Under the pieces are notes generated by a model. The model worked only from the letters and a program-made list of their open reading frames with translations, was not told where the DNA came from and searched no databases. This document shows, one piece after another, positions 1 to 8,204 of a stretch of DNA of 8,204 bases (its first letter is position 1; every line of letters starts with the position of its first letter). The position numbers and the translations under genes are program-made. The DNA lies in the NCBI GenBank assembly GCA_024405255.1, contig JAKSOY010000200.1, positions 1-8,204 on the forward strand. Direction: 5' to 3'. Origin of the DNA: Kiritimatiellia bacterium. Lineage in GTDB: Bacteria; Verrucomicrobiota; Kiritimatiellia; RFP12; UBA1067.

Positions 1-551
1 TCATCCTGAACGGCCTCGGCAAGGACGCGGCGTACATCATCTCGCGCATCAACGGGTTCACCTACTGCAAGACCGTCTTCAATCCGAAGACCGAGAAGGT
101 GAAGGTCGTCTCCAAGACGGCGTTCTCCAAGGGACCGCGCGCGAATGTCCGCTGCTATGGCGCCGACAACGTGCCGGAAGGCGTGGCGATCATGCGCATG
201 GAGAACGTGGGCGTGTCCATCACGGGCAACTCCACGAACCCGACGCGCTTCCAGCATCCGGTCGCGGGCACCTACAAGAAGTGGTGCTGGGAGAACGGCC
301 GCAAGTACTTCTCCGTCGCCTCGGGCGGCGGCACGGGCCGTACGCTCCATCCCGACAACATGGCGGCGGGTCCGTCCAGCTACGGCATGACCGACACGAT
401 GGGCCGTATGCACTCCGACGCGCAGTTCGCGGGCTCCAGCTCGGTGCCGGCGCACGTCGAGATGATGGGCCTCATCGGCATGGGCAACAACCCGATGGTC
501 GGCGCGACCGTCGCGGTGGCCGTGGCCGTCGAGGAAAGCTTCAAGAAGTAA
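1..551 (+). CDS. GGGtGRT-family protein, C-terminal part (5' end outside window)
   Basis: The frame is open from base 3 to the TAA at 549-551, giving 182 residues with no start of its own; an internal ATG at 99 is unlikely to be the true start because the coding pattern continues upstream of it. The defining feature is the motif SGGGTGRT, with GGGTGRT encoded at 324-344, followed by LHPDN and a Gly/Met-rich stretch (GMTDTMGRMHSDAQFAGSS) and a tail rich in Ala and Val. This matches the Pfam-type family named after its GGGtGRT motif, whose biochemical role is not established; members are usually roughly 330 residues, so somewhat over half is present here. From memory, relatives can lie beside NifU-like Fe-S scaffold genes, but that neighbour would be upstream and is not visible. 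Codons end overwhelmingly in C or G, which suggests strong expression. The gene is followed by a terminator-like hairpin. Family assignment is fairly secure; function is unknown. Confidence 0.8.
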   Translation, partial: ILNGLGKDAAYIISRINGFTYCKTVFNPKTEKVKVVSKTAFSKGPRANVRCYGADNVPEGVAIMRMENVGVSITGNSTNPTRFQHPVAGTYKKWCWENGRKYFSVASGGGTGRTLHPDNMAAGPSSYGMTDTMGRMHSDAQFAGSSSVPAHVEMMGLIGMGNNPMVGATVAVAVAVEESFKK

Positions 552-565
552 GCTGAAGCTGAAAC

Positions 566-632
566 AATCCTTATCGAATGGAAAGGACGGGGGAGCCCCG
601 GTTCCCCCGACCCCCTTCGGTAAGGATTTTTT
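566..632 (+). terminator. Nested hairpin with T-run, probable intrinsic terminator
   Basis: The outer arms 566-578 (AATCCTTATCGAA) and 616-628 (TTCGGTAAGGATT) pair over 13 positions with a single T-G wobble. They enclose a second stem, 589-594 (GGGGGA) with 603-608 (TCCCCC). The 3' arm runs straight into six Ts at 627-632. It begins 14 bases after the stop codon of the GGGtGRT gene, the normal place for its terminator. Oddly, it ends only 8 bases before the ATG at 641, and its 3' arm contains the only Shine-Dalgarno-like AAGGA (622-626) near that start. It could therefore act as an attenuator or translational switch as well as a terminator. Confidence 0.75.
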
Positions 633-640
633 GTCTCTCG

Positions 641-2164
641 ATGAACCGTCACGGAACACAATGGGCGCTGTTTGTCGCCACGCGTGCCATGGGCCTGCTG
701 ATCGATACGGGCTTATTGGGGATGGCGTATCTGGCGGCGGTGATTCTGCGGTTCGATTTCCGTGAACCGCTTTGGGGCTGGCGTGCAACGGCCTTGAGTT
801 TTGGAACGGTCTGGCTGGTGCAGATCGTTTCGTTGGTGGTGACGGGCTGCTATAAACTGCCTTGGCGACGGACAGGTACGCTGGCCCTGCCGCGTTATGC
901 TCTAGCCTTTGTGCTGAGTGCCGTGGTGCTGGCGGGCTTGCGTTGGTATCTGCCCGAATTCACCTTGGCGCATGTGCGTCCGCCGTATTCGGTGACGTTG
1001 ATTTCCACCGTGTTCGCCTTCTGCGCTGTGGTGGGGGCGCGCTTCCTGTGGCGTTTCTATTCCCAGGCCCGGCAGGACGAGAAGAAATTGCTGCGCCGTC
1101 ACGAGAAGGTCGTGGGCGGTGCGGGCGTGTTGGATCTTTTGCGCGACAAGACGGTTCTCGTGACCGGTGCGGGCGGAACGATCGGCAGTGAAATCGTGCG
1201 CCAGGTCGCCTGCAGCGGCGCCAAGCGTGTGATTATGCTTGAGCGGAGCGAGAACGCGCTCTACGAGATCGATCGCGAGATGCGCGGGGCGGGCGTGAGC
1301 GCCGACTGCATTCCTGCGATGGTCGACATCCGCGACGAGGATCGGATGAAGGCGGTGTTCGCGCGCTGGAAGCCGCAGGTCGTGTTGCACGCGGCGGCCT
1401 ACAAGCACGTGCCGATGGTGGAGAAGAATCCGCTGGAGGGCCTGCGAAACAATACCGTCGCCACGCGCCGTCTCGGCGAGTGGGCGCGGGAGGCGGGCGT
1501 CAAGCGCTTTGTGATGATTTCAACGGACAAGGCGGTGAACCCCATCAGCGTGATGGGCATGACGAAGCGCCTGGCCGAGGTTCTGCTTTTGGAATTGAAC
1601 GGCGGTGCCACGCTGTTCTCGTGTGTGCGCTTTGGCAATGTGCTTGGATCAAGCGGCAGCGTCGTGCCGCTCTTCCGCGAGCAGATTGCGCAGAGGGGAC
1701 CCGTCACGGTGACCCATCCCGAGATGAAGCGCTACTTCATGAGCGTGGAAGAGGCGGTGGGCCTTGTACTCGAGGCGGCGTCGATTTCGGGGACCGAACG
1801 GACGGGGACTCTGGCGTCCTCGAACCCTGCCCAGGGGAGTGGGCTTATTTTCACGCTCGACATGGGTGAGCCGGTGAAGATCATCGACTTGGCGGAGGAC
1901 ATGATTCGCCAGGCCGGCTATCGACCCTATGTCGACATTCCGATCCAGTTCACGGGGATTCGTCCGGGCGAGAAGCTCTTTGAAGAGCTTGACGTGAACG
2001 AGAAGAGCGCCTATTGCACGACTGGACACGCCCGTATCTTCATCTGTCGCGCCGCAGGCCGTGCCGAAGGCATTGAAACGGACGAGGTGATGCGCTTCGC
2101 CGCAGGAAATCCAACCAAGGAAGAGGTGCGTGCCTTCCTCAAGGCACGGGTGGGCGTCGCGTGA
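641..2164 (+). CDS. Membrane-bound nucleotide-sugar 4,6-dehydratase/epimerase, CapD/WbpM/FlaA1 type, short form
   Basis: This 507-residue protein resembles enzymes that act on UDP-sugars at the inner membrane to make precursors for surface polysaccharide or protein glycans. The N-terminal part has about four hydrophobic segments (residues ~17-36, 50-69, 83-102, 117-137). The SDR domain starts near 170 with the cofactor loop GAGGTIGSE (176-184; G176, G179, G182), then HAAAYKHVPMVE, STDKA (294-298), VMGMTK (304-309) and RPGEKLFEE (441-449). In place of the usual YxxxK there is M305-x3-K309, the variant known in WbpM-like dehydratases. Relatives of about 600-670 residues have an extra Rossmann-like domain between the membrane part and the SDR domain; it is absent here. 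Residues ~384-401 form an insertion before LDMGEPV. I chose ATG 641 because the in-frame ATG at 578 lies inside the terminator stem; ATG 689 is another option. The stop overlaps the next gene's GTG (GTGA). The exact substrate cannot be told. Confidence 0.88.
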   Translation: MNRHGTQWALFVATRAMGLLIDTGLLGMAYLAAVILRFDFREPLWGWRATALSFGTVWLVQIVSLVVTGCYKLPWRRTGTLALPRYALAFVLSAVVLAGLRWYLPEFTLAHVRPPYSVTLISTVFAFCAVVGARFLWRFYSQARQDEKKLLRRHEKVVGGAGVLDLLRDKTVLVTGAGGTIGSEIVRQVACSGAKRVIMLERSENALYEIDREMRGAGVSADCIPAMVDIRDEDRMKAVFARWKPQVVLHAAAYKHVPMVEKNPLEGLRNNTVATRRLGEWAREAGVKRFVMISTDKAVNPISVMGMTKRLAEVLLLELNGGATLFSCVRFGNVLGSSGSVVPLFREQIAQRGPVTVTHPEMKRYFMSVEEAVGLVLEAASISGTERTGTLASSNPAQGSGLIFTLDMGEPVKIIDLAEDMIRQAGYRPYVDIPIQFTGIRPGEKLFEELDVNEKSAYCTTGHARIFICRAAGRAEGIETDEVMRFAAGNPTKEEVRAFLKARVGVA

Positions 2165-3225
2165 AAGCGTCGTTGATCGTCCCCTGCTGGAACAGCGCGC
2201 GCACGCTTCCGCGTTTTTTCGCGTGCGTACAGGCGCAGACACTGTCCGATTTCGAGGTGATTTTCGTCGATGACGGGTCCACGGACGAAACATCGACTTT
2301 GCTGGCGGATTTCGCGCGTGCGACGTATCCGTTTCTCGTACGGGTGGTGACCCAGGCCAATCGGGGCGTGAGCGCCGCACGGAATGCGGGGCTAGACCTT
2401 GCGCGCGGGACATTCATCTTCTTCGCGGATCCCGATGACCTCATTCGCGCCGAAATGCTCGCGAAGGGCGTTTCCGCAATGGAAATGGATGCGGCGGACT
2501 ACTGCGTGTTCCCCTATGCCGAACGTCTGGAAGACGAGGCCGAATCGCGCCTTGTGCCGTTGAAGGGGAACTGCCGCCTGGTTTCAAACGAGGCTATTCG
2601 CGTCCAGTATCTCACGCGTCTCTTCGGCTATTCGTTTGAGCAGGTCAAGGCCTGGTATGCGGGTACACCGCTGTTCGCGCATCGTGTGCAGGGGGGCGTG
2701 TGCTGGTGCGTCTATCGGCGGGCGCTTCTCGAAGAGCATCATGTTCGTTTCGATCCGCGCATTACGCTTTATGAGGACGCGATGTTCAACAGTGCCTATT
2801 TGCTGTACGCGACGCGTATGACCTGTGTTGACGAGCCGCTCTATGACTATCTGCACGCGCGCACGGGGGCGATTGCGCGGCTGCGCCGGAACGGACGTGA
2901 ACTCGCAAACAAGCTTGAACTCCTGCGCGTGCGCCAGGAACTCGATGCCGCCTCCGGATATCAGCTGACCCCGCTCTATGCGGCCTCGTGCGTCTTCTCG
3001 GTACTCGAGATGCTGTACATCGTCTTGACTGGTCGCGCGCCGTTCCGGATGGGACTGCGCCAGGTGCGAACCTATCTCGCGGTGCCGGTCGTACGGCGGG
3101 CGATTCGCGACTTCCCGCTCTGTCTGTGGCATCCTGTGCTGGCGCTCGGGGTGCTTGTCCTTCGCGTGGTCGCTCCTGTGCGACACGCTGAACCGAATGC
3201 CGCTGCCGTGCGTTCAATGAGATGA
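2161..3225 (+). CDS. Family 2 (GT-A) glycosyltransferase
   Basis: This 354-residue protein probably transfers a sugar from a nucleotide-sugar donor to a growing glycan at the cytoplasmic face of the membrane. The N-terminus is a typical GT2 domain: SLIVPCWN at 4-11, VDDGSTDE at 36-43, NRGVSAARNAGL at 67-78, and the metal-binding DxD-type motif FFADPDDL (D90, D92). A second conserved block, CWCVYRRALLEE followed by LYEDAMF (E205, D206), fits the position of the catalytic-base ED motif in this family. A hydrophobic stretch near 322-339 could associate with the membrane. It starts with GTG at 2161, whose last two bases begin the TGA of the upstream dehydratase gene, implying translational coupling; its own stop is overlapped by the next ATG. 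Donor and acceptor are unknown. The adjacent SDR enzyme may supply the donor and the pilin-like neighbour could be an acceptor, but both are inferences. Confidence 0.9.
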   Translation: MKASLIVPCWNSARTLPRFFACVQAQTLSDFEVIFVDDGSTDETSTLLADFARATYPFLVRVVTQANRGVSAARNAGLDLARGTFIFFADPDDLIRAEMLAKGVSAMEMDAADYCVFPYAERLEDEAESRLVPLKGNCRLVSNEAIRVQYLTRLFGYSFEQVKAWYAGTPLFAHRVQGGVCWCVYRRALLEEHHVRFDPRITLYEDAMFNSAYLLYATRMTCVDEPLYDYLHARTGAIARLRRNGRELANKLELLRVRQELDAASGYQLTPLYAASCVFSVLEMLYIVLTGRAPFRMGLRQVRTYLAVPVVRRAIRDFPLCLWHPVLALGVLVLRVVAPVRHAEPNAAAVRSMR

Positions 3226-4145
3226 TGAAAGTTGTCCGATCCAGATTCCTTGCCGGCTTCACGCTGATCGAGGTGTTGCTTGTCGTGTCCATTCTGGCCG
3301 TACTGGCGACACTTGTCGTGAACCGTTACGCGCGGGTGGCCGAAACGGCGAAGGTCACGGTGGCCGAGGCCGATCTGCAGGCGATCCGTACCGCCTTCCT
3401 TGCGCCGGAGCACGGCTATGTGCGGGATTTGACGGGACTCGCTGGTTTCTCGCCGGTCTATCTGCGCGTCGGCAATCTCTTTGTTGCGACGAACGTGTTC
3501 GGTAACAAGGTGGTAGGGCCGCGTGTCGCCGATTTGCGCACGCGCGGTCTTCGTCTGGACGAAGGAAGCGAGGCCCAGTGCCAGGCGGAAGGGCGTGCGC
3601 GCCCTGAACTCTTCACATCGTGGGATGAAACGCGCAACCGCGGCTGGCACGGACCTTACCTCGCATCGGCAACGGGCGTGTTCCCCGCGCCGGAGGCCGT
3701 ACGCTTTGCCAATGACGCCACCTTCGCGGCACGTGGTTTCTTCCCGGCGTTGACGCACCTCTTGCTGCCGGATGAATTCAAAGATGCGACGCGTGCGTCG
3801 GTCTACGGGTTTGTCGGCGAACCGACGCTGCTCGATCCGTGGGGAAATCCATACGTGGTGCAAGTGCCGCCGCCGCAGGCGTTTGCGGGGGTGACGAACA
3901 TTCCCGATGCGGTTCGCTTCGACTATGCGCGTGTCGTCTCGGCGGGTCCGGACGGCGTCCTTTCAACACCGTGCTTCGGTGCGAACACGACGAACTACTG
4001 GGGCGCGACCGGCTGGAGCGAACGTCGTCGGCGCCTCGCGCGCCAGGCGGGCCTCATCGACGGTACCGACCGTTCTGCCCGCGGCGACGATCTCGTGCTC
4101 TTCTTCACCCGTACCGACCTCGACGAAGGCGAGTCCACCCGCTGA
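3222..4145 (+). CDS. GspG-like pseudopilin / prepilin-type N-terminal methylation protein
   Basis: The 307-residue product is a class III-signal prepilin. A short basic leader ends in G12, followed by F13-TLIE with the conserved Glu at mature position +5 (E17) and a hydrophobic helix to about residue 35, so prepilin peptidase should cut between G12 and F13. The C-terminal part resembles the major type II pseudopilin GspG: GWHGPYL (141-147), DPWGNPY (205-211), SAGPDG (240-245) and GDDLVLFF (288-295), the Asp-rich pieces that hold calcium in GspG. It is about twice the usual GspG length because of an insertion of roughly 57 residues between GWHGPYL and DPWGNPY and additional sequence after SAGPDG. 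The ATG shares ATGA with the stop of the glycosyltransferase gene; a second ATG follows at once (3225). It may be a surface filament subunit or an exported pilin-like protein. No other secretion genes are visible. Confidence 0.87.
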   Translation: MMKVVRSRFLAGFTLIEVLLVVSILAVLATLVVNRYARVAETAKVTVAEADLQAIRTAFLAPEHGYVRDLTGLAGFSPVYLRVGNLFVATNVFGNKVVGPRVADLRTRGLRLDEGSEAQCQAEGRARPELFTSWDETRNRGWHGPYLASATGVFPAPEAVRFANDATFAARGFFPALTHLLLPDEFKDATRASVYGFVGEPTLLDPWGNPYVVQVPPPQAFAGVTNIPDAVRFDYARVVSAGPDGVLSTPCFGANTTNYWGATGWSERRRRLARQAGLIDGTDRSARGDDLVLFFTRTDLDEGESTR

Positions 4146-4336
4146 TTAAGGTGCGTCCCTGTCTCAATAGCTGGAATCTGGACGACGTACGCGTTTAGTC
4201 CGTGGCCCGCTCGCCGCCCACGCGCCAACGATCAATGTGGCGAAATCTGCTTAAAATATTGAGATAAAGATAGCAGAGTTTTATAAATGTAATATTATTG
4301 ATTAGTATCATGATTTTTTATTTTATAAAAATGTAT
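4146..4336 (+). other. Intergenic composition break with AT-rich tract
   Basis: No gene is visible between the pseudopilin and the ATPase. The first part is GC-rich and contains only weak hairpins (5-bp arms 4201-4205 with 4218-4222, and 4223-4227 with 4238-4242) without a T-run, so I see no clear terminator. From about 4245 the DNA turns extremely AT-rich: 12 of 60 bases are G or C at 4261-4320. A small AT palindrome occupies 4315-4331 (7-bp arms, TTT loop). The tract lies directly upstream of a strong promoter and could act as an UP element; it also marks a likely junction of acquired DNA. Confidence 0.6.
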
Positions 4337-4366
4337 TTGACGGAATGTCGGATGAAATGGTATGAT
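4337..4366 (+). promoter_or_regulatory. Sigma-70-type promoter of the ATPase gene
   Basis: TTGACG at 4337-4342 matches the -35 consensus at five of six positions and TATGAT at 4361-4366 matches the -10 at five of six, with an 18-base spacer. The predicted transcription start is near 4373, leaving a short leader. A strong ribosome site (GAGAGGAG, 4377-4384) follows, six bases before the ATG at 4391. The long AT-rich tract just upstream would favour polymerase binding. The gene is thus transcribed independently of the glycan operon. Confidence 0.8.
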
Positions 4367-4390
4367 TTAGCCACATGAGAGGAGCAGATC

Positions 4391-5785
4391 ATGATTGGGC
4401 GTCTAAAAGAGCGGCAACAATTGCTGGAGGCTTTTCAATCCGAATATTCTGAGTTTGTGGCCGTCTATGGCCGACGTCGGGTTGGCAAGACCTTTTTGAT
4501 CCGCGAAACATTCAATTATTCGTTTACGTTTCAGCACACAGGGGTTAAAAGCGCCAACAAGGAGATCCAGCTTCAACGATTTCGGGCGTCGCTGGTTGAA
4601 CAGGGGCACAAGGACTGTCCCGTATTGCGAAGTTGGTTCGATGCGCTGGACCAATTGAAAGTCGTCATCGCGTCAAGTGCGGACGAACGCAAGGTGGTGT
4701 TCATTGATGAGGTTCCGTGGATGGGGCGGACGGATTCCAGTTTCATCTCGGCTTTGGAACATTTTTGGAATGGGTGGGCGTCGGCGCGGAAGGACATTGT
4801 TCTCATTGTCTGCGGTTCGGCAACCTCGTGGGTTTTGGATAAGATTGTGCATAATCGGGATGGCCTGCATGGCCGTGTGACCTACCGCATTCGCCTGGAT
4901 CCTTTTTCGCTTGCGGAATGTGCCGACTACGCGGAATCGCGCGGGCTCGAATACACCAAGGACCAGTTGGCGGAATGCTATATGGTTCTAGGGGGAATCC
5001 CGATGTATTGGCGATACCTTGAAAAGGGGAAAAGCGTTGCGCAGAACATTGACGAGCTGTTCTTTTCGGGGAGCGAGAAGCTTGAACATGAATTTGACGA
5101 ACTCTATTCGTCCCTGTTTGAAAATGCAGAGCCCTATATCGCCATCGTGACGGCGCTTGCCGGTAGAAAATGTGGCATGACCCGCGAAGAGGTTTCCAGG
5201 AATTCCGGAGTGGCAGACAATGGTTGGCTTTCCAAGTATCTCAAGGTTCTTGAACAATGCGGTTTCATTCGGCGGTTCACTGAGATCGGTAAAAAATGTA
5301 AAGGGGCGGTTTTTCAGCTGATCGACAATTTTACATTATTCCATTTCAGGTATATGAAAGGGAACACGACCAACGATCCGCATTACTGGTCGTCAATGCT
5401 CGACTCACGCGTGCATACTACGTGGGTGGGGTTGGCCTTTGAGCGCCTTTGCCTGCAGCATGTCGAGCAGATCAAGTCCGCATTGGGGATCAGCGGGGTT
5501 TTGACGAATGTCCATTCCTGGCGGAATGAGAACGCCCAAGTTGATTTGCTGGTGGATCGCAAAGACGGCATTATCAATCTCTGCGAGATGAAATATTGGG
5601 CTGGACCGTACACCCTGACAGAAAGCGATGACCGGAATCTTGCGAACAAGAAAGTCGAGTTCAAGACTGCAACTAGAACGCGCAAGGCGGTTCACTTGAC
5701 CCTGGTTACGTCGTTTGGCGTTAAAGACAACGCCTATTCCCATAAAGTTCAGTCGTTTGTGACGCTTGACGATTTGTTCAAGTGA
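4391..5785 (+). CDS. P-loop ATPase of the archaeal-type ATPase/DUF234 family with PD-(D/E)XK-like C-terminus
   Basis: The 464-residue protein belongs to a widespread but poorly understood STAND/AAA-like group. The opening MIGRLKERQQLL is typical. Walker A is GRRRVGKT (27-34, K33), Walker B is VVFIDEVPW (D106, E107), and CGSATSW (141-147) sits where a sensor residue is expected. Residues ~257-300 look like a winged helix (MTREEVSRNSGV...WLSKYLKVLEQCGFI). The C-terminal DUF234-like domain carries a restriction-endonuclease-like signature: E351, then D385 in QVDLLVD and ExK at E399-M-K401 after a hydrophobic strand. The family length (about 450-480) is matched, so the gene looks intact. Start choice is firm, given the ribosome site and promoter. 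Codon use is more AT-rich than in the upstream operon, consistent with transfer. Function is unknown; a DNA-acting ATPase/nuclease or a mobile or defence-linked role is possible but inferred. Confidence 0.88.
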   Translation: MIGRLKERQQLLEAFQSEYSEFVAVYGRRRVGKTFLIRETFNYSFTFQHTGVKSANKEIQLQRFRASLVEQGHKDCPVLRSWFDALDQLKVVIASSADERKVVFIDEVPWMGRTDSSFISALEHFWNGWASARKDIVLIVCGSATSWVLDKIVHNRDGLHGRVTYRIRLDPFSLAECADYAESRGLEYTKDQLAECYMVLGGIPMYWRYLEKGKSVAQNIDELFFSGSEKLEHEFDELYSSLFENAEPYIAIVTALAGRKCGMTREEVSRNSGVADNGWLSKYLKVLEQCGFIRRFTEIGKKCKGAVFQLIDNFTLFHFRYMKGNTTNDPHYWSSMLDSRVHTTWVGLAFERLCLQHVEQIKSALGISGVLTNVHSWRNENAQVDLLVDRKDGIINLCEMKYWAGPYTLTESDDRNLANKKVEFKTATRTRKAVHLTLVTSFGVKDNAYSHKVQSFVTLDDLFK

Positions 5786-5796
5786 GGGGTGATGGG

Positions 5797-5838
5797 GCCG
5801 TGAGCGGGAGATTTGAACACAAGTTGCTCCGCCACGGC
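5797..5838. repeat. GC-rich imperfect palindrome after the ATPase gene
   Basis: GCCGTG (5797-5802) pairs with CACGGC (5833-5838). With single-base bulges at 5803 and near 5808, GCGG and AG continue the pairing with CTCCGC (5827-5832), about 12 pairs around a 16-base loop. It starts 11 bases past the ATPase stop. No T-run follows, so it is not a standard intrinsic terminator. Given the REP-associated transposase domain encoded downstream, it is a candidate REP-like hairpin, though a Rho-type or structure-only 3' end is equally possible from this copy alone. Confidence 0.5.
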
Positions 5839-5867
5839 TGATACATCGTATGCTGAACTTTTGGGTA

Positions 5868-5930
5868 CGATTTTCTTGGGTGACATTCCATTGACGATCT
5901 TTGACCTATGGATGTTACAGAAGAAAATCG
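5868..5930. repeat. 63-base imperfect palindrome
   Basis: CGATTTTCTT (5868-5877) and AAGAAAATCG (5921-5930) are perfect 10-base inverted arms. Inside, after a small internal loop, GTGACAT pairs with ATGTTAC (one wobble) and, past one bulged T, CCAT pairs with ATGG, giving about 21 pairs around a 16-base loop. Neither strand has a T-run after the stem, so terminator function is doubtful. It lies just upstream of the regulator promoter. It could be a regulatory structure, a REP-like or MITE-like remnant, or a substrate of the nearby HUH transposase. Confidence 0.5.
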
Positions 5931-5945
5931 CATCCATGATTTCAG

Positions 5946-5968
5946 AATTGCAAATTGGGTAATTGCAA
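5946..5968 (+). promoter_or_regulatory. Direct repeat AATTGCAA x2, candidate operator
   Basis: Two copies of AATTGCAA lie at 5946-5953 and 5961-5968, 15 bases apart start to start. The second copy contains the putative -35 hexamer of the regulator gene. A DNA-binding protein on these sites would block polymerase, so autorepression by the XRE product encoded just downstream is a reasonable guess. There is no experimental support. Confidence 0.45.
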
Positions 5969-5991
5969 TGCGTCCCGAAGTTTGATATAAT
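5963..5991 (+). promoter_or_regulatory. Extended -10 promoter of the regulator/transposase unit
   Basis: TATAAT at 5986-5991 is a perfect -10 and is preceded by TGA (5983-5985), an extended -10 TGn. TTGCAA at 5963-5968, 17 bases upstream, serves as a partial -35 (4 of 6). With the last T at -7, transcription should begin at about 5998, the A of the ATG itself. No Shine-Dalgarno sequence lies before that ATG, so a leaderless mRNA is predicted. Confidence 0.72.
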
Positions 5992-5997
5992 GTCGGC

Positions 5998-7032
5998 ATG
6001 AAAACAGGAGAAATAGTTCTTGCTGACCGAATAAGGTCTTTACGCCAGGCGCGCGGATTGAGTCAGGCGGTATTGGCAAAACGGATGGGAATGACACCAT
6101 CACAATTGTGCAAGATCGAGCTTGGGCATAATGGCCTTTCGGAATCGAGCATTCGGCGCGTGGCGGAGGCCTTGGGGGTGACGATCGCCGAATTGATGGG
6201 TGAAACGGAGATCGGTGCACAGGCGCGTGAAAAGCCAGTGGTGAAAACAGATAAGGGTGAGGTCGTACCGATTATGGTAAGCGATCTTCCTGCTGAATTC
6301 ATAGCCGAGGTCGGTACACATGCCCTGGCGTTTGATGCGCAGATGATTGGTGTGAAAGAGGCACTTGGGGTGATGGCGCAGTCGTCATTGCAACTGGTGT
6401 TCCCGTACGGGGTTGATGAAGAGGCGGCCGAATTACTCGCGCGGGATATGAGGTATTCGTTGGGCGTGGGGTGTGTGCCGGTCAGTAATCTTGAAACGGT
6501 ATTGGAAATGCGCGGCGTACGCATCGTTCGGCGGCAATACCCCAAGCAGTTCCAAAGTGGCTCGTTTTACAATGCGTGGCATCGGTCGCTCATTATCGTT
6601 GTCAATGAATCGAATACGCAGGAACGTAATGATTATCGACTGGCCTACGAGCTCGGCGCGGCGACGCTTTTTGCAATGACCGGTTTTAAGACGATTCGCG
6701 ATGAAGGGGCGGCCCATCGGCTTTTACGGCGGTTCACGGCGGCGTTTTTGATGCCGGAAGAGACGATGCGCATGGATGTGGCGCAAAGCGGCATTACGCC
6801 CGAGGGCTGGACGATGGAACTGCTTTTGATGATGAAAGCGCGTTTCTCGGTTTCGGCCGAGGCCTATGCCCTGCGCCTCGAATCGCTCGGCCTCATCAAC
6901 CCCGAGTTGCGCGTGAAGCTGCGAGACGACTTGCGGGCGCATTATCAAAAGAATCCCAAAGCCATGGAACCCCAGCCAGAGGAGCAATCCATGCTCGCGA
7001 TATTAAAGGCAGTAGCCAAAGGAGGCCGATGA
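5998..7032 (+). CDS. XRE-family regulator with degenerate ImmA/IrrE-like domain
   Basis: The 344-residue protein begins with a Cro/C1-type helix-turn-helix (about 8-66: LADRIRSLRQARGLSQAVLAKRMG, then MTPSQLCKIELG). A linker follows, and then an ImmA/IrrE-like domain from about 140 to 310. Fold markers of that peptidase family are visible: RFTAAFLMP (245-253) in the place of the usual NxFAAxLLMP, and FSVSAEAYALRLESLGLI (283-300) in the place of the VSxxAxxxRLxxLGLI stretch. The zinc site is gone: where HEIGH is expected the sequence is YELGA (217-221), and the third-ligand Glu position aligns with Leu242. It should therefore bind DNA, and perhaps a ligand or partner, but not cut proteins. The start is the ATG seven bases past a perfect -10, predicting leaderless translation. 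The stop overlaps the next gene's ATG. Most likely a repressor of its own operon; the target is inferred. Confidence 0.85.
   Translation: MKTGEIVLADRIRSLRQARGLSQAVLAKRMGMTPSQLCKIELGHNGLSESSIRRVAEALGVTIAELMGETEIGAQAREKPVVKTDKGEVVPIMVSDLPAEFIAEVGTHALAFDAQMIGVKEALGVMAQSSLQLVFPYGVDEEAAELLARDMRYSLGVGCVPVSNLETVLEMRGVRIVRRQYPKQFQSGSFYNAWHRSLIIVVNESNTQERNDYRLAYELGAATLFAMTGFKTIRDEGAAHRLLRRFTAAFLMPEETMRMDVAQSGITPEGWTMELLLMMKARFSVSAEAYALRLESLGLINPELRVKLRDDLRAHYQKNPKAMEPQPEEQSMLAILKAVAKGGR
7018..7025 (+). promoter_or_regulatory. Ribosome binding site of the transposase-fusion gene
   Basis: AAAGGAGG is a strong Shine-Dalgarno sequence lying inside the last codons of the regulator gene. It is only three bases from the ATG at 7029, tighter than usual. 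Another ATG at 7033 has better spacing, but its frame ends at the TAG 7069-7071, so 7029 (sharing ATGA with the regulator stop) is preferred. The next in-frame ATG is at 7092. Confidence 0.65.
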
Positions 7033-8204
7033 ATGGCAGTATCCAGAATCTGCCTTCGGGTTGGCATTTAGATCCCGATACGGGTGCGTGGATGCGTGAT
7101 ACGATCCACCACATGGGGCGACGTTGCCGTAACTGGGATTATCGTGGGCGGGGCGTGTATCTGATCACGATTGCGGCGGCAACTCGGGGAAGCGGCATTT
7201 GGGGGCGGGTGGCGGCCGAGGTCGCAAGCGACTCGCCGCTCACGGAAGCCGGCGCGCCGCACGTGGGCGTGAAGGAAGCAGGCGTGCCGCGCGTGGGCGT
7301 TTCACCGCTTGCGGTGAAATCCTCCGTGAAATTCCGGCCCAATGCAAACGGCCGGTTGATTGAAGCCGAGTGGTTGCACCTTGCCGAGGCTTGGCCGGGG
7401 GTGAAGCTGCTGGCGCATCAGGTGATGGAAGATCATTTTCATGGTGTGATTGCCACGCCCTCGTTCATGCAGAAACCTCTGGGGGCCATTATCGGGTCAT
7501 TCAAGGCGCGGTCGTCGAGTGTGGCGGGGAAGTCGTTGTGGTCGAAAGGGTATGTTGATACGATTCTCTTTGATGACGTTGCGGTTGAGAAGGCGATTCA
7601 ATATGTACGGGAAAACCCGTGGCATCTCTTTGTGAAGCGAGGTAATCCTGAATTGTTTCTAGTGAAGCGTGGGCTTGAAGTTAAGGGAATCGGTCATTTC
7701 GTCGCCATCGGCAATCACTTCCTCTTGGATGCCCCGCACATCCTTCAAGTACAATGCTCGCGTACGCATTTTGCGTATGCGCGTCGCTCTGACGGTTCAA
7801 TCGATAAAGAGGCCCACCCTCTGGTGGCCACGAGCGAATTTTCGGAAAAGGCTGAAGGTCTTCTCGAAGCAGCGGCTCATGGCGCCGTATTGGTAAGCCC
7901 GTGCATCAGCCACGGCGAAAAGGAAATCGCCCGTCGGGCGTTCGCGGCGGGCGCGAAGGTGATCACGCTTGCCAACAAAGGGTTCAGTCCGCTCTACAAG
8001 CCGGGAGGGAAATTGTTCGATCAATGTGCCAATGGTAATCTGCTGATGCTCGCCCCAGCCGCCTGGCCCTACTTGCCGGGGAAGAAGCCAATCACGCGTA
8101 TCGATGCATGTGTGCTCAATCGCATCGCCCAACTGATCGCGGGCAGCGGAGCCACCGAAATCGACTACAAAGGCATTCGTCTCGAAGGAGTGGAAGAGGC
8201 AATG
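7029..8204 (+). CDS. REP-associated tyrosine transposase (Y1/HUH) fused to a DprA/Smf-like domain, 3' end outside window
   Basis: The frame is open for 392 codons from ATG 7029 to the window edge. Residues ~36-205 are a Y1 transposase domain of the REP-associated (RAYT/IS200-like) kind: WDYRGRGVYLITI opens the fold, the metal/DNA-binding HUH motif is H136-F-H138 in VMEDHFHGVIATP, and the nucleophile is likely Y192 in YVRENPWHL, 54 residues later as expected. Residues 64-100 are a repetitive insertion. From about 206 a second domain follows, resembling the Rossmann-like core of DprA/Smf: GNHFLLDAPHILQVQCSR (228-245), AVLVSPCISHGEKEIARRAF (286-305), then GAKVITLANKGFSPLYKPGG (308-327). DprA binds single-stranded DNA and HUH enzymes cut it, so a joint ssDNA role is plausible but inferred. 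No terminal repeats or partner gene of an autonomous insertion sequence are seen. It is co-transcribed and overlaps the regulator by 4 bases. Confidence 0.85.
   Translation, partial: MNGSIQNLPSGWHLDPDTGAWMRDTIHHMGRRCRNWDYRGRGVYLITIAAATRGSGIWGRVAAEVASDSPLTEAGAPHVGVKEAGVPRVGVSPLAVKSSVKFRPNANGRLIEAEWLHLAEAWPGVKLLAHQVMEDHFHGVIATPSFMQKPLGAIIGSFKARSSSVAGKSLWSKGYVDTILFDDVAVEKAIQYVRENPWHLFVKRGNPELFLVKRGLEVKGIGHFVAIGNHFLLDAPHILQVQCSRTHFAYARRSDGSIDKEAHPLVATSEFSEKAEGLLEAAAHGAVLVSPCISHGEKEIARRAFAAGAKVITLANKGFSPLYKPGGKLFDQCANGNLLMLAPAAWPYLPGKKPITRIDACVLNRIAQLIAGSGATEIDYKGIRLEGVEEAM
7245..7304 (+). repeat. 30-base in-frame tandem repeat, two units
   Basis: Units 7245-7274 and 7275-7304 encode EAGAPHVGVK and EAGVPRVGVS. 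They differ at a few bases and keep the reading frame. They sit in the variable loop of the transposase domain between the first strand and the segment leading to the HUH motif, where length changes are least likely to harm the fold. Probably a product of replication slippage. Confidence 0.75.

Follow-up and report, generated by a model that had tools for sequence, protein, structure and literature searches.

A RAYT-type transposase half and a DprA-like half in one reading frame of a Kiritimatiellia bacterium, in a family rich in local palindromic hairpins

REP-associated tyrosine transposases (RAYTs; REP, repetitive extragenic palindrome) are enzymes that cut DNA hairpins; they are regarded as domesticated transposases, of unsettled benefit to the cell. 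DprA is a protein that holds single-stranded DNA (ssDNA). Here, a gene is described that joins a RAYT-type half to a DprA-like half, hereafter the RAYT-DprA fusion gene, in an 8,204-nucleotide stretch of DNA from a Kiritimatiellia bacterium (assembly GCA_024405255.1, contig JAKSOY010000200.1; "the window" below). An earlier note, made from the sequence alone, had read this gene as a HUH transposase fused to a DprA/Smf-like domain, one half nicking and joining ssDNA and the other resembling a protein that loads RecA.

With RAYT/TnpA-REP proteins (class 2 TnpA-Y1; E. coli, structure 4er8), the fusion shares the N-terminal fold, the HUH motif with the Y---NP signature, and palindromic hairpins around the gene. 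It differs in its added DprA domain, in a GT[AG]G foot that occurs at chance level, and in missing the curated family cut-offs (NCBIfam NF047646, 28.2 bits against 80; Pfam Y1_Tnp, 16.1 bits against 23). In the parts of the TnpA-Y1 classification that deal with subclass 2.4, REP sequences are described in frame within the transposase gene, usually in the stretch from HUH to Tyr, together with a variable loop, a median length of 194 aa and the motifs NH[IFV]H, WQ and YIxNNP, and the paper's table gives no C-terminal domain (PMC6006769). The fusion resembles subclass 2.4, as far as those parts describe it (Quentin et al. 2018), in its in-frame hairpins and variable loop, whereas comparison with the published motifs sets it apart by DHFH, LWS and YVRENP, by its C-terminal DprA fold and by its length, which exceeds 400 aa. 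Subclass 2.3 is portrayed in the corresponding parts with a median of 325 aa, a distal subclass-specific C-terminal domain modelled at 61 aa, several copies per genome, NHYH, WE and YVDLNP motifs, a conserved 55-aa insertion and no REP sequences found (PMC6006769). A long protein with a distal C-terminal domain and multi-copy occurrence are common to subclass 2.3 and the fusion, which differs in DHFH, LWS, YVRENP and the presence of hairpins, a separation drawn from published motifs and not from the C-terminal domains. The same parts mention HTH/DnaA-like C-terminal domains in subclass 2.1 and leave the distal domain of subclass 2.3 unnamed (PMC6006769).

The C-terminal half has a Rossmann fold in common with DprA/Smf proteins (3uqz, 4ljr, 3maj), as well as the leading GN.LL..P sequence, the arginine of (G/C)SR and an Asn that corresponds to the one in RNR; in the fusion, the C-terminal end is shorter, lacks the winged-helix or SAM domain and stays below the PF02481 cut-off, and VSGLARGID is replaced by VSPCISHGE. 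The best fold match of this half is ShosA (8zva, 9vzo; "DprA-like antitoxin" in the PDB), which is a separate protein. A RAYT-DprA fusion was not found by title or abstract start in open-licence literature, a restriction that makes this negative weak evidence of novelty. The main text of PMC6006769, which was not searched for DprA, contains neither "rossmann" nor "fused", and "dpra" has 0 occurrences in PMC3733652. A search of the literature for ShosTA gave no title on that system.

The features of the fusion gene are as follows.
7029..8204, + strand: RAYT-DprA fusion gene, 392 codons with no stop before the window end
7021..7025, + strand: GGAGG, read from the sequence, 3 nt before the ATG
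7104..7643, + strand: Y1 HUH domain of RAYT/TnpA-REP type, about residues 26-205 (P0002 model and fold matches)
7431..7442, + strand: HUH motif DHFH (H136, H138)
7602..7604, + strand: catalytic Tyr192, in YVREN
7614-7616, + strand: Asn196, four residues past Tyr192, part of the class 2 Y1 signature Y---NP
7659..8204, + strand: DprA-like Rossmann domain, from about residue 211 up to the last codon of the window (fold and profile comparison)
7758..7763, + strand: Ser244-Arg245, counterpart of DprA G-S-R, the Arg aligned with SpDprA R115 (ssDNA contact)
7908..7919, + strand: Ser294 to Glu297 of SPCISHGEKE, the two best-conserved residues of the C-terminal domain
8097..8099, + strand: Arg357, placed by its spacing to a conserved Asn

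Translation confirms the stop-free frame claimed before, from the ATG at 7029 to the last base of the window, as well as the positions of the catalytic residues (DHFH at residues 135-138, Tyr192) and the strings quoted for the C-terminal half (GNHFLL at 228-233, SPCISHGEKE at 290-299, and GAKVITLANKGF). GGAGG at 7021..7025 is the probable ribosome-binding site. The suspicion that a sequencing frameshift had joined two genes is excluded, because a close relative, P0002 (98% identity to the window protein in residues 200-392), exists as one protein of 420 aa and the two-part architecture is present in 62 distinct frames. The 3' end was judged from P0002, which extends 8 residues beyond the last codon of the window; if the window allele ends likewise, 8 residues and a stop follow position 8204.

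The predicted structure gives the N-terminal half a Y1 transposase fold nearest to TnpA-REP. Its boundaries were read from the P0002 model (26-225, minus 20 residues past the insert), and among the fold matches the 4er8 row covers 26-351 and the IS608 rows cover 40-204. Searches of PADLOC with the window protein (P0001) and of PHROGs with P0002 returned nothing useful.

For the C-terminal half, the structure prediction proposed in the earlier note yielded a DprA Rossmann fold, by the model and its fold matches. In profile comparison with DprA, hhalign gave 10% (E 0.003) for the close-family profile A2 and 70% (E 4e-5) for the divergent set A4. A PDB sequence search with P0001 or A2 gave no DprA match; in Pfam, the C-terminal piece of the window protein had no match and whole P0001 matched only Y1_Tnp, below its cut-off. 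Among 20 divergent members, PF02481 was matched by two (best E 0.12) and TIGR00732 by one (E 0.17). According to the passages of PMC4066776 on DNA contacts, SpDprA R115 (HpDprA R52) and a basic patch including K202 contact ssDNA, and the part of PMC4489622 on H. pylori DprA describes a Rossmann domain that binds ssDNA on its own. Arg357 is likely the counterpart of K202, judging from equal spacing: K202 stands 7 residues before the Asn of RNR in SpDprA, and R357 stands 7 before the Asn of LNR in the window protein. This arginine is invariant in the 50 rows of alignment A5. Because R115 is kept as R245, the RecA-contact region lies mostly beyond the match and the HpDprA Rossmann domain suffices for DNA, the sequence comparison makes it plausible that the C-terminal domain holds ssDNA and unlikely that it loads RecA. 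The reading of a RAYT half joined to a DprA-like half thus stands, while its RecA-loading part does not look probable.

The fusion belongs to a widespread family. Residues 200-392 as query retrieved 1,328 proteins at E ≤ 1e-3 (216-686 aa, with some shorter pieces; the best 120 of 1,328 were examined), so chance is ruled out for the C-terminal domain. Hosts named in the contig scan comprise Victivallales, Verrucomicrobia, Porphyromonadaceae and two Prevotellaceae metagenome-assembled genomes (five named), and Kiritimatiellae and Victivallales occur among the source names. The family profile is matched (E ≤ 1e-3) in 46 of 59 genomes related to genome G002, in some through the N-terminal half only. 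In even draws, with at most six candidates scored per genome, 28 of 288 genomes from the phylum of G002 matched at 1e-40, and 30 of 296 matched at 1e-20 in the phylum to which the Prevotellaceae genome G004 belongs; in the latter set G004 has full-length fusions and the other 29 have the N-terminal half in frames of 167-266 aa. A model of the N-terminal half alone found, at 30 loci (one per genome), 12 with the C-terminal domain, 17 without it and one without a recognised frame, and plain RAYTs therefore coexist with the fusion. Another 27 divergent loci stand for 26 distinct genes, with L051 and L061 counted as one; the domain is visible by eye in all except L047, which has an internal stop. 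No family match was found in phages and plasmids, and in viral contigs seven stretches fit a pattern, none of them encoding a relative.

C-terminal-half matches alone amount to 184 proteins (109-310 aa among the best 120 of 184); these were taken to be fragments without each being checked, and since one of the searches scored only 7,998 candidates, a stand-alone family may have been missed.

The 62 distinct fused frames come from loci found in whole-protein or N-terminal-half searches and kept by the C-terminal profile (E ≤ 1e-10) and the HUH pattern; HUH is therefore no independent test, and Tyr and Asn were not used for the choice. Tyr192 and Asn196 are each present in 62/62 frames, and Ser244 and Arg245 in 57/62 each; Glu297 (62/62) and Ser294 (61/62) are conserved in frames that were kept by the C-terminal profile. 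Distances in the two halves correlate across the 62 frames (Spearman 0.73, reached by none of 500 permutations) and thus fit an old joint history of both halves. A claim of stronger conservation in the DprA half than in the RAYT half (0.67 vs 0.48 in alignment A1) was rejected, as A1 had been found with the C-terminal half as query; conservation of the C- and N-terminal halves is 0.32 vs 0.31 in the 62 frames and 0.53 vs 0.48 in 353 closer pairs.

In the window, palindromic DNA lies inside the RAYT half.
7230..7330, + strand: insert loop with tandem 30-bp units and hairpin (P0002 68-109, model pLDDT under 50)
7244..7303, + strand: two tandem 30-bp units, family D3 (copies 7244-7270 and 7274-7300, 89% alike)
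7300..7319, no strand: perfect REP-like hairpin TTTCACCGC-TT-GCGGTGAAA, read in frame as GVSPLAVK

The loop holds two 10-residue units of GVPxVGVKEA type in the window protein and four, the last partial, in P0002, so that its length varies between close alleles because the unit number differs. The window covers the in-gene hairpin, and the 3' flank lies beyond it.

Across the family, perfect hairpins (stem of at least 8, loop of 2-4) were counted against 20 dinucleotide shuffles. Inside 26 stop-to-stop fusion frames, recognised among 30 candidate loci (L022, L040, L041 and L043 were not recognised by the patterns), there are 58 hairpins in 32 kb vs 3.2 in shuffles (maximum 8; 1.80/kb), with at least one in 20 frames. 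The flanks to 500 bp of these genes contain 20 vs 1.6 (maximum 4; 0.79/kb), and the next kilobase 8 vs 3.2 (maximum 7; 0.18/kb). The larger set has 87 hairpins within 39 of the 62 frames. In-frame density is highest between HUH and Tyr (2.34/kb) and lowest in the DprA domain (0.57/kb). As for the foot, the canonical REP version GT[AG]G accompanies 2 of 130 hairpins (shuffle mean 2.9); a different foot, GT[TC][CA][TC]G[TC]G, which was derived from the same data and whose matches always read GTYCYGYG, stands at 36 of the 130 vs 0.35 with shuffled flanks (maximum 2 in 200), and in the first set at 40 of 83 hairpins and at 0 of 7 control hairpins. At L002, a palindrome is repeated in and beside the gene and translated SRMDARA.

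On the protein level, the peptide repeats LAKNGEARD (L012) and CASPETAK (L044) are translated palindromes, and L067, L072 and L075 hold similar repeats at the peptide level. Low-complexity repeats of annotated proteins may be in-frame hairpin arrays.

The family hairpins are mainly local, unlike the REPs of E. coli, which the TnpA-Y1 classification, in the parts concerned, describes as dispersed (PMC6006769). Genome G002 carries at least three fusion genes, each with a different palindrome. All 10 sites of CGCGCATNNATGCGCG in G002 lie at C17:7787-9281 (family match 7872-9116), all six copies of TCGCCATTNTTGGCGA at C14:1301-1703 (within the match 565-1851), and 9 of 22 copies of CGCCGTTTCCGGCG at C313:195-1406 (match 322-1554); these local copies fall in the respective match or within about 170 bp. 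In G011, 9 of 10 CGCCGTTTCCGGCG copies are on the gene's contig, as are 4 of 4 copies of another palindrome in G007 and 5 of 8 in G015.

Single exact or paired copies occur elsewhere. The G002 palindrome CGCGCATCCATGCGCG recurs once, letter for letter, at locus L017 (G001:C113:11758), and two CGCCGTTTCCGGCG copies 30 bp apart at G002:C26:4741-4784, distant from any listed fusion gene, are possibly a remnant.

Taking these results together, we give an even chance to a mechanism in which one protein nicks and rejoins folded ssDNA by its RAYT half and holds the adjoining strand by its shortened DprA half, mainly at the hairpins of its own gene. Three points in it are inferred: the role of the hairpins as substrate, ssDNA binding by the DprA half, and the participation of both halves in one reaction. 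The substrates would be short palindromic hairpins in and around the gene that become single-stranded during replication or repair; the RAYT half would cut and join at the hairpin, and the DprA half would bind and protect the displaced strand so that the reaction stays local. Hairpin units would then be gained, lost or moved mostly inside the gene itself, surviving in frame in loops. If true, this would physically link hairpin nicking to DprA-type strand handling. A multi-copy branch with a built-in partner of ssDNA-binding type and different hairpins per gene copy would offer matched enzyme-substrate pairs, a natural specificity experiment, and hairpins within the coding sequence make the likely target directly testable.

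Several observations weigh against this mechanism. The window has one strong hairpin, to which no foot can be assigned, and the folding of the 121 nt around it is little better than that of shuffles (z -1.6). Hairpins of the strength counted here are absent from the inside of 23 of the 62 fused frames, no more than 15 of 50 loci have the derived foot, and nine control DprA loci (eight genomes) also exceed shuffles (7 vs 2.0, maximum 5; 0.23/kb). The C-terminal domain is shorter than DprA, and the Arg357 column falls short of 85% conservation in the 62 frames. Moreover, the DNA-contact passages of PMC4066776 describe SpDprA R115 alone as insufficient for ssDNA binding, the whole basic patch being required. 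The hairpins could also expand by replication slippage, with no enzyme involved, and the TCGCCATTNTTGGCGA (C14-type) palindrome is not private to G002, being found also in fusion genes of G006, G008, G041 and G048.

Another reading, which we regard as possible yet doubtful, is that these are self-directed hairpin systems: each copy would process the palindrome in its own coding sequence, the DprA domain would return the strand to the same locus, and transposase and hairpin would co-diversify, with several such pairs per genome. Strict privacy is contradicted by the other 13 of the 22 CGCCGTTTCCGGCG copies, which are scattered in G002, and by one CGCGCATNNATGCGCG site in G001; TCGCCATTNTTGGCGA occurs elsewhere once or twice each in G006, G008, G035 and G058, and the CGCCGTTTCCGGCG 14-mer has a background of 2-8 copies in 11 genomes besides G002 and G011. 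Privacy in G002 thereby narrows to two of the three palindromes, and since fusion genes of four further genomes share the C14-type palindrome, it follows the gene lineage and not a single genome.

Rather unlikely, in our judgment, is a C-terminal domain that acts as a sensor or regulator, like ShosA or the nucleotide-binding SLOG/LOG proteins, and gates the nuclease half on a phage, damage or nucleotide signal. ShosA is the nearest fold; the motif PGGxGTxxE, characteristic of LOG-type Rossmann (SLOG) proteins, was not found in the C-terminal domain.

We think it improbable that the hairpins are no substrates at all, being slippage-prone palindromes or expression elements of the gene's own mRNA that are tolerated in loops. 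The tandem 30-bp units and their copy-number difference between alleles fit slippage, and hairpins are rarest in the DprA domain; on the other hand, in G007 and G015 hairpins are found beside the gene too, in either orientation, a common foot accompanies different stems, and hairpins differ between paralogues of one genome as enzyme-substrate pairs would.

A full DprA role, with RecA loaded on the strand freed by the RAYT half and the hairpin moving by recombination, agrees with the fold and the retained ssDNA arginine but is the least credible reading, since, of the RecA contacts E235, M238, D243 and E265 given in the relevant passages of PMC4066776, the first three have uncertain counterparts (D243 hardly any) and E265 has none because the SpDprA match stops at residue 236-241, some 20 residues short of the end of P0002, compact family members such as L004 (318 aa) stop earlier still, at the LNELARIIVEEL helix, no length remains for a winged-helix domain, and a separate DprA gene scores above the Pfam cut-off in 8 of 8 genomes tested.

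One gene directly precedes the fusion gene.
5998..7032, + strand: upstream gene, helix-turn-helix (HTH_31/HTH_3) and Peptidase_M78 (ImmA/IrrE-like), 344 aa

The ATG of the fusion gene overlaps the stop of this gene by 4 bp (ATGA, 7029-7032). The upstream protein matches PADLOC RmrA models (best 6.6e-24) and is matched in 33 of 59 related genomes, in some through the helix-turn-helix only. Among the matches listed, no contig was seen by eye to carry both this protein and the fusion, and the pairing looks not to be conserved.

Further upstream, G+C is about 0.60-0.63 over positions 1-4000, falls to 0.48-0.52 within 4001-6400 and then rises, and a 464-aa gene at 4391-5785 matches ATPase_2, with weak DUF234/DUF4143 matches; because of the G+C drop and the ATPase_2 gene, 4200-8204 may be an acquired block. 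A frame at 3222-4145 starts with a type IV pilin-like signal, GFTLIEVLLVVSILAVLATL, as read from its translation.
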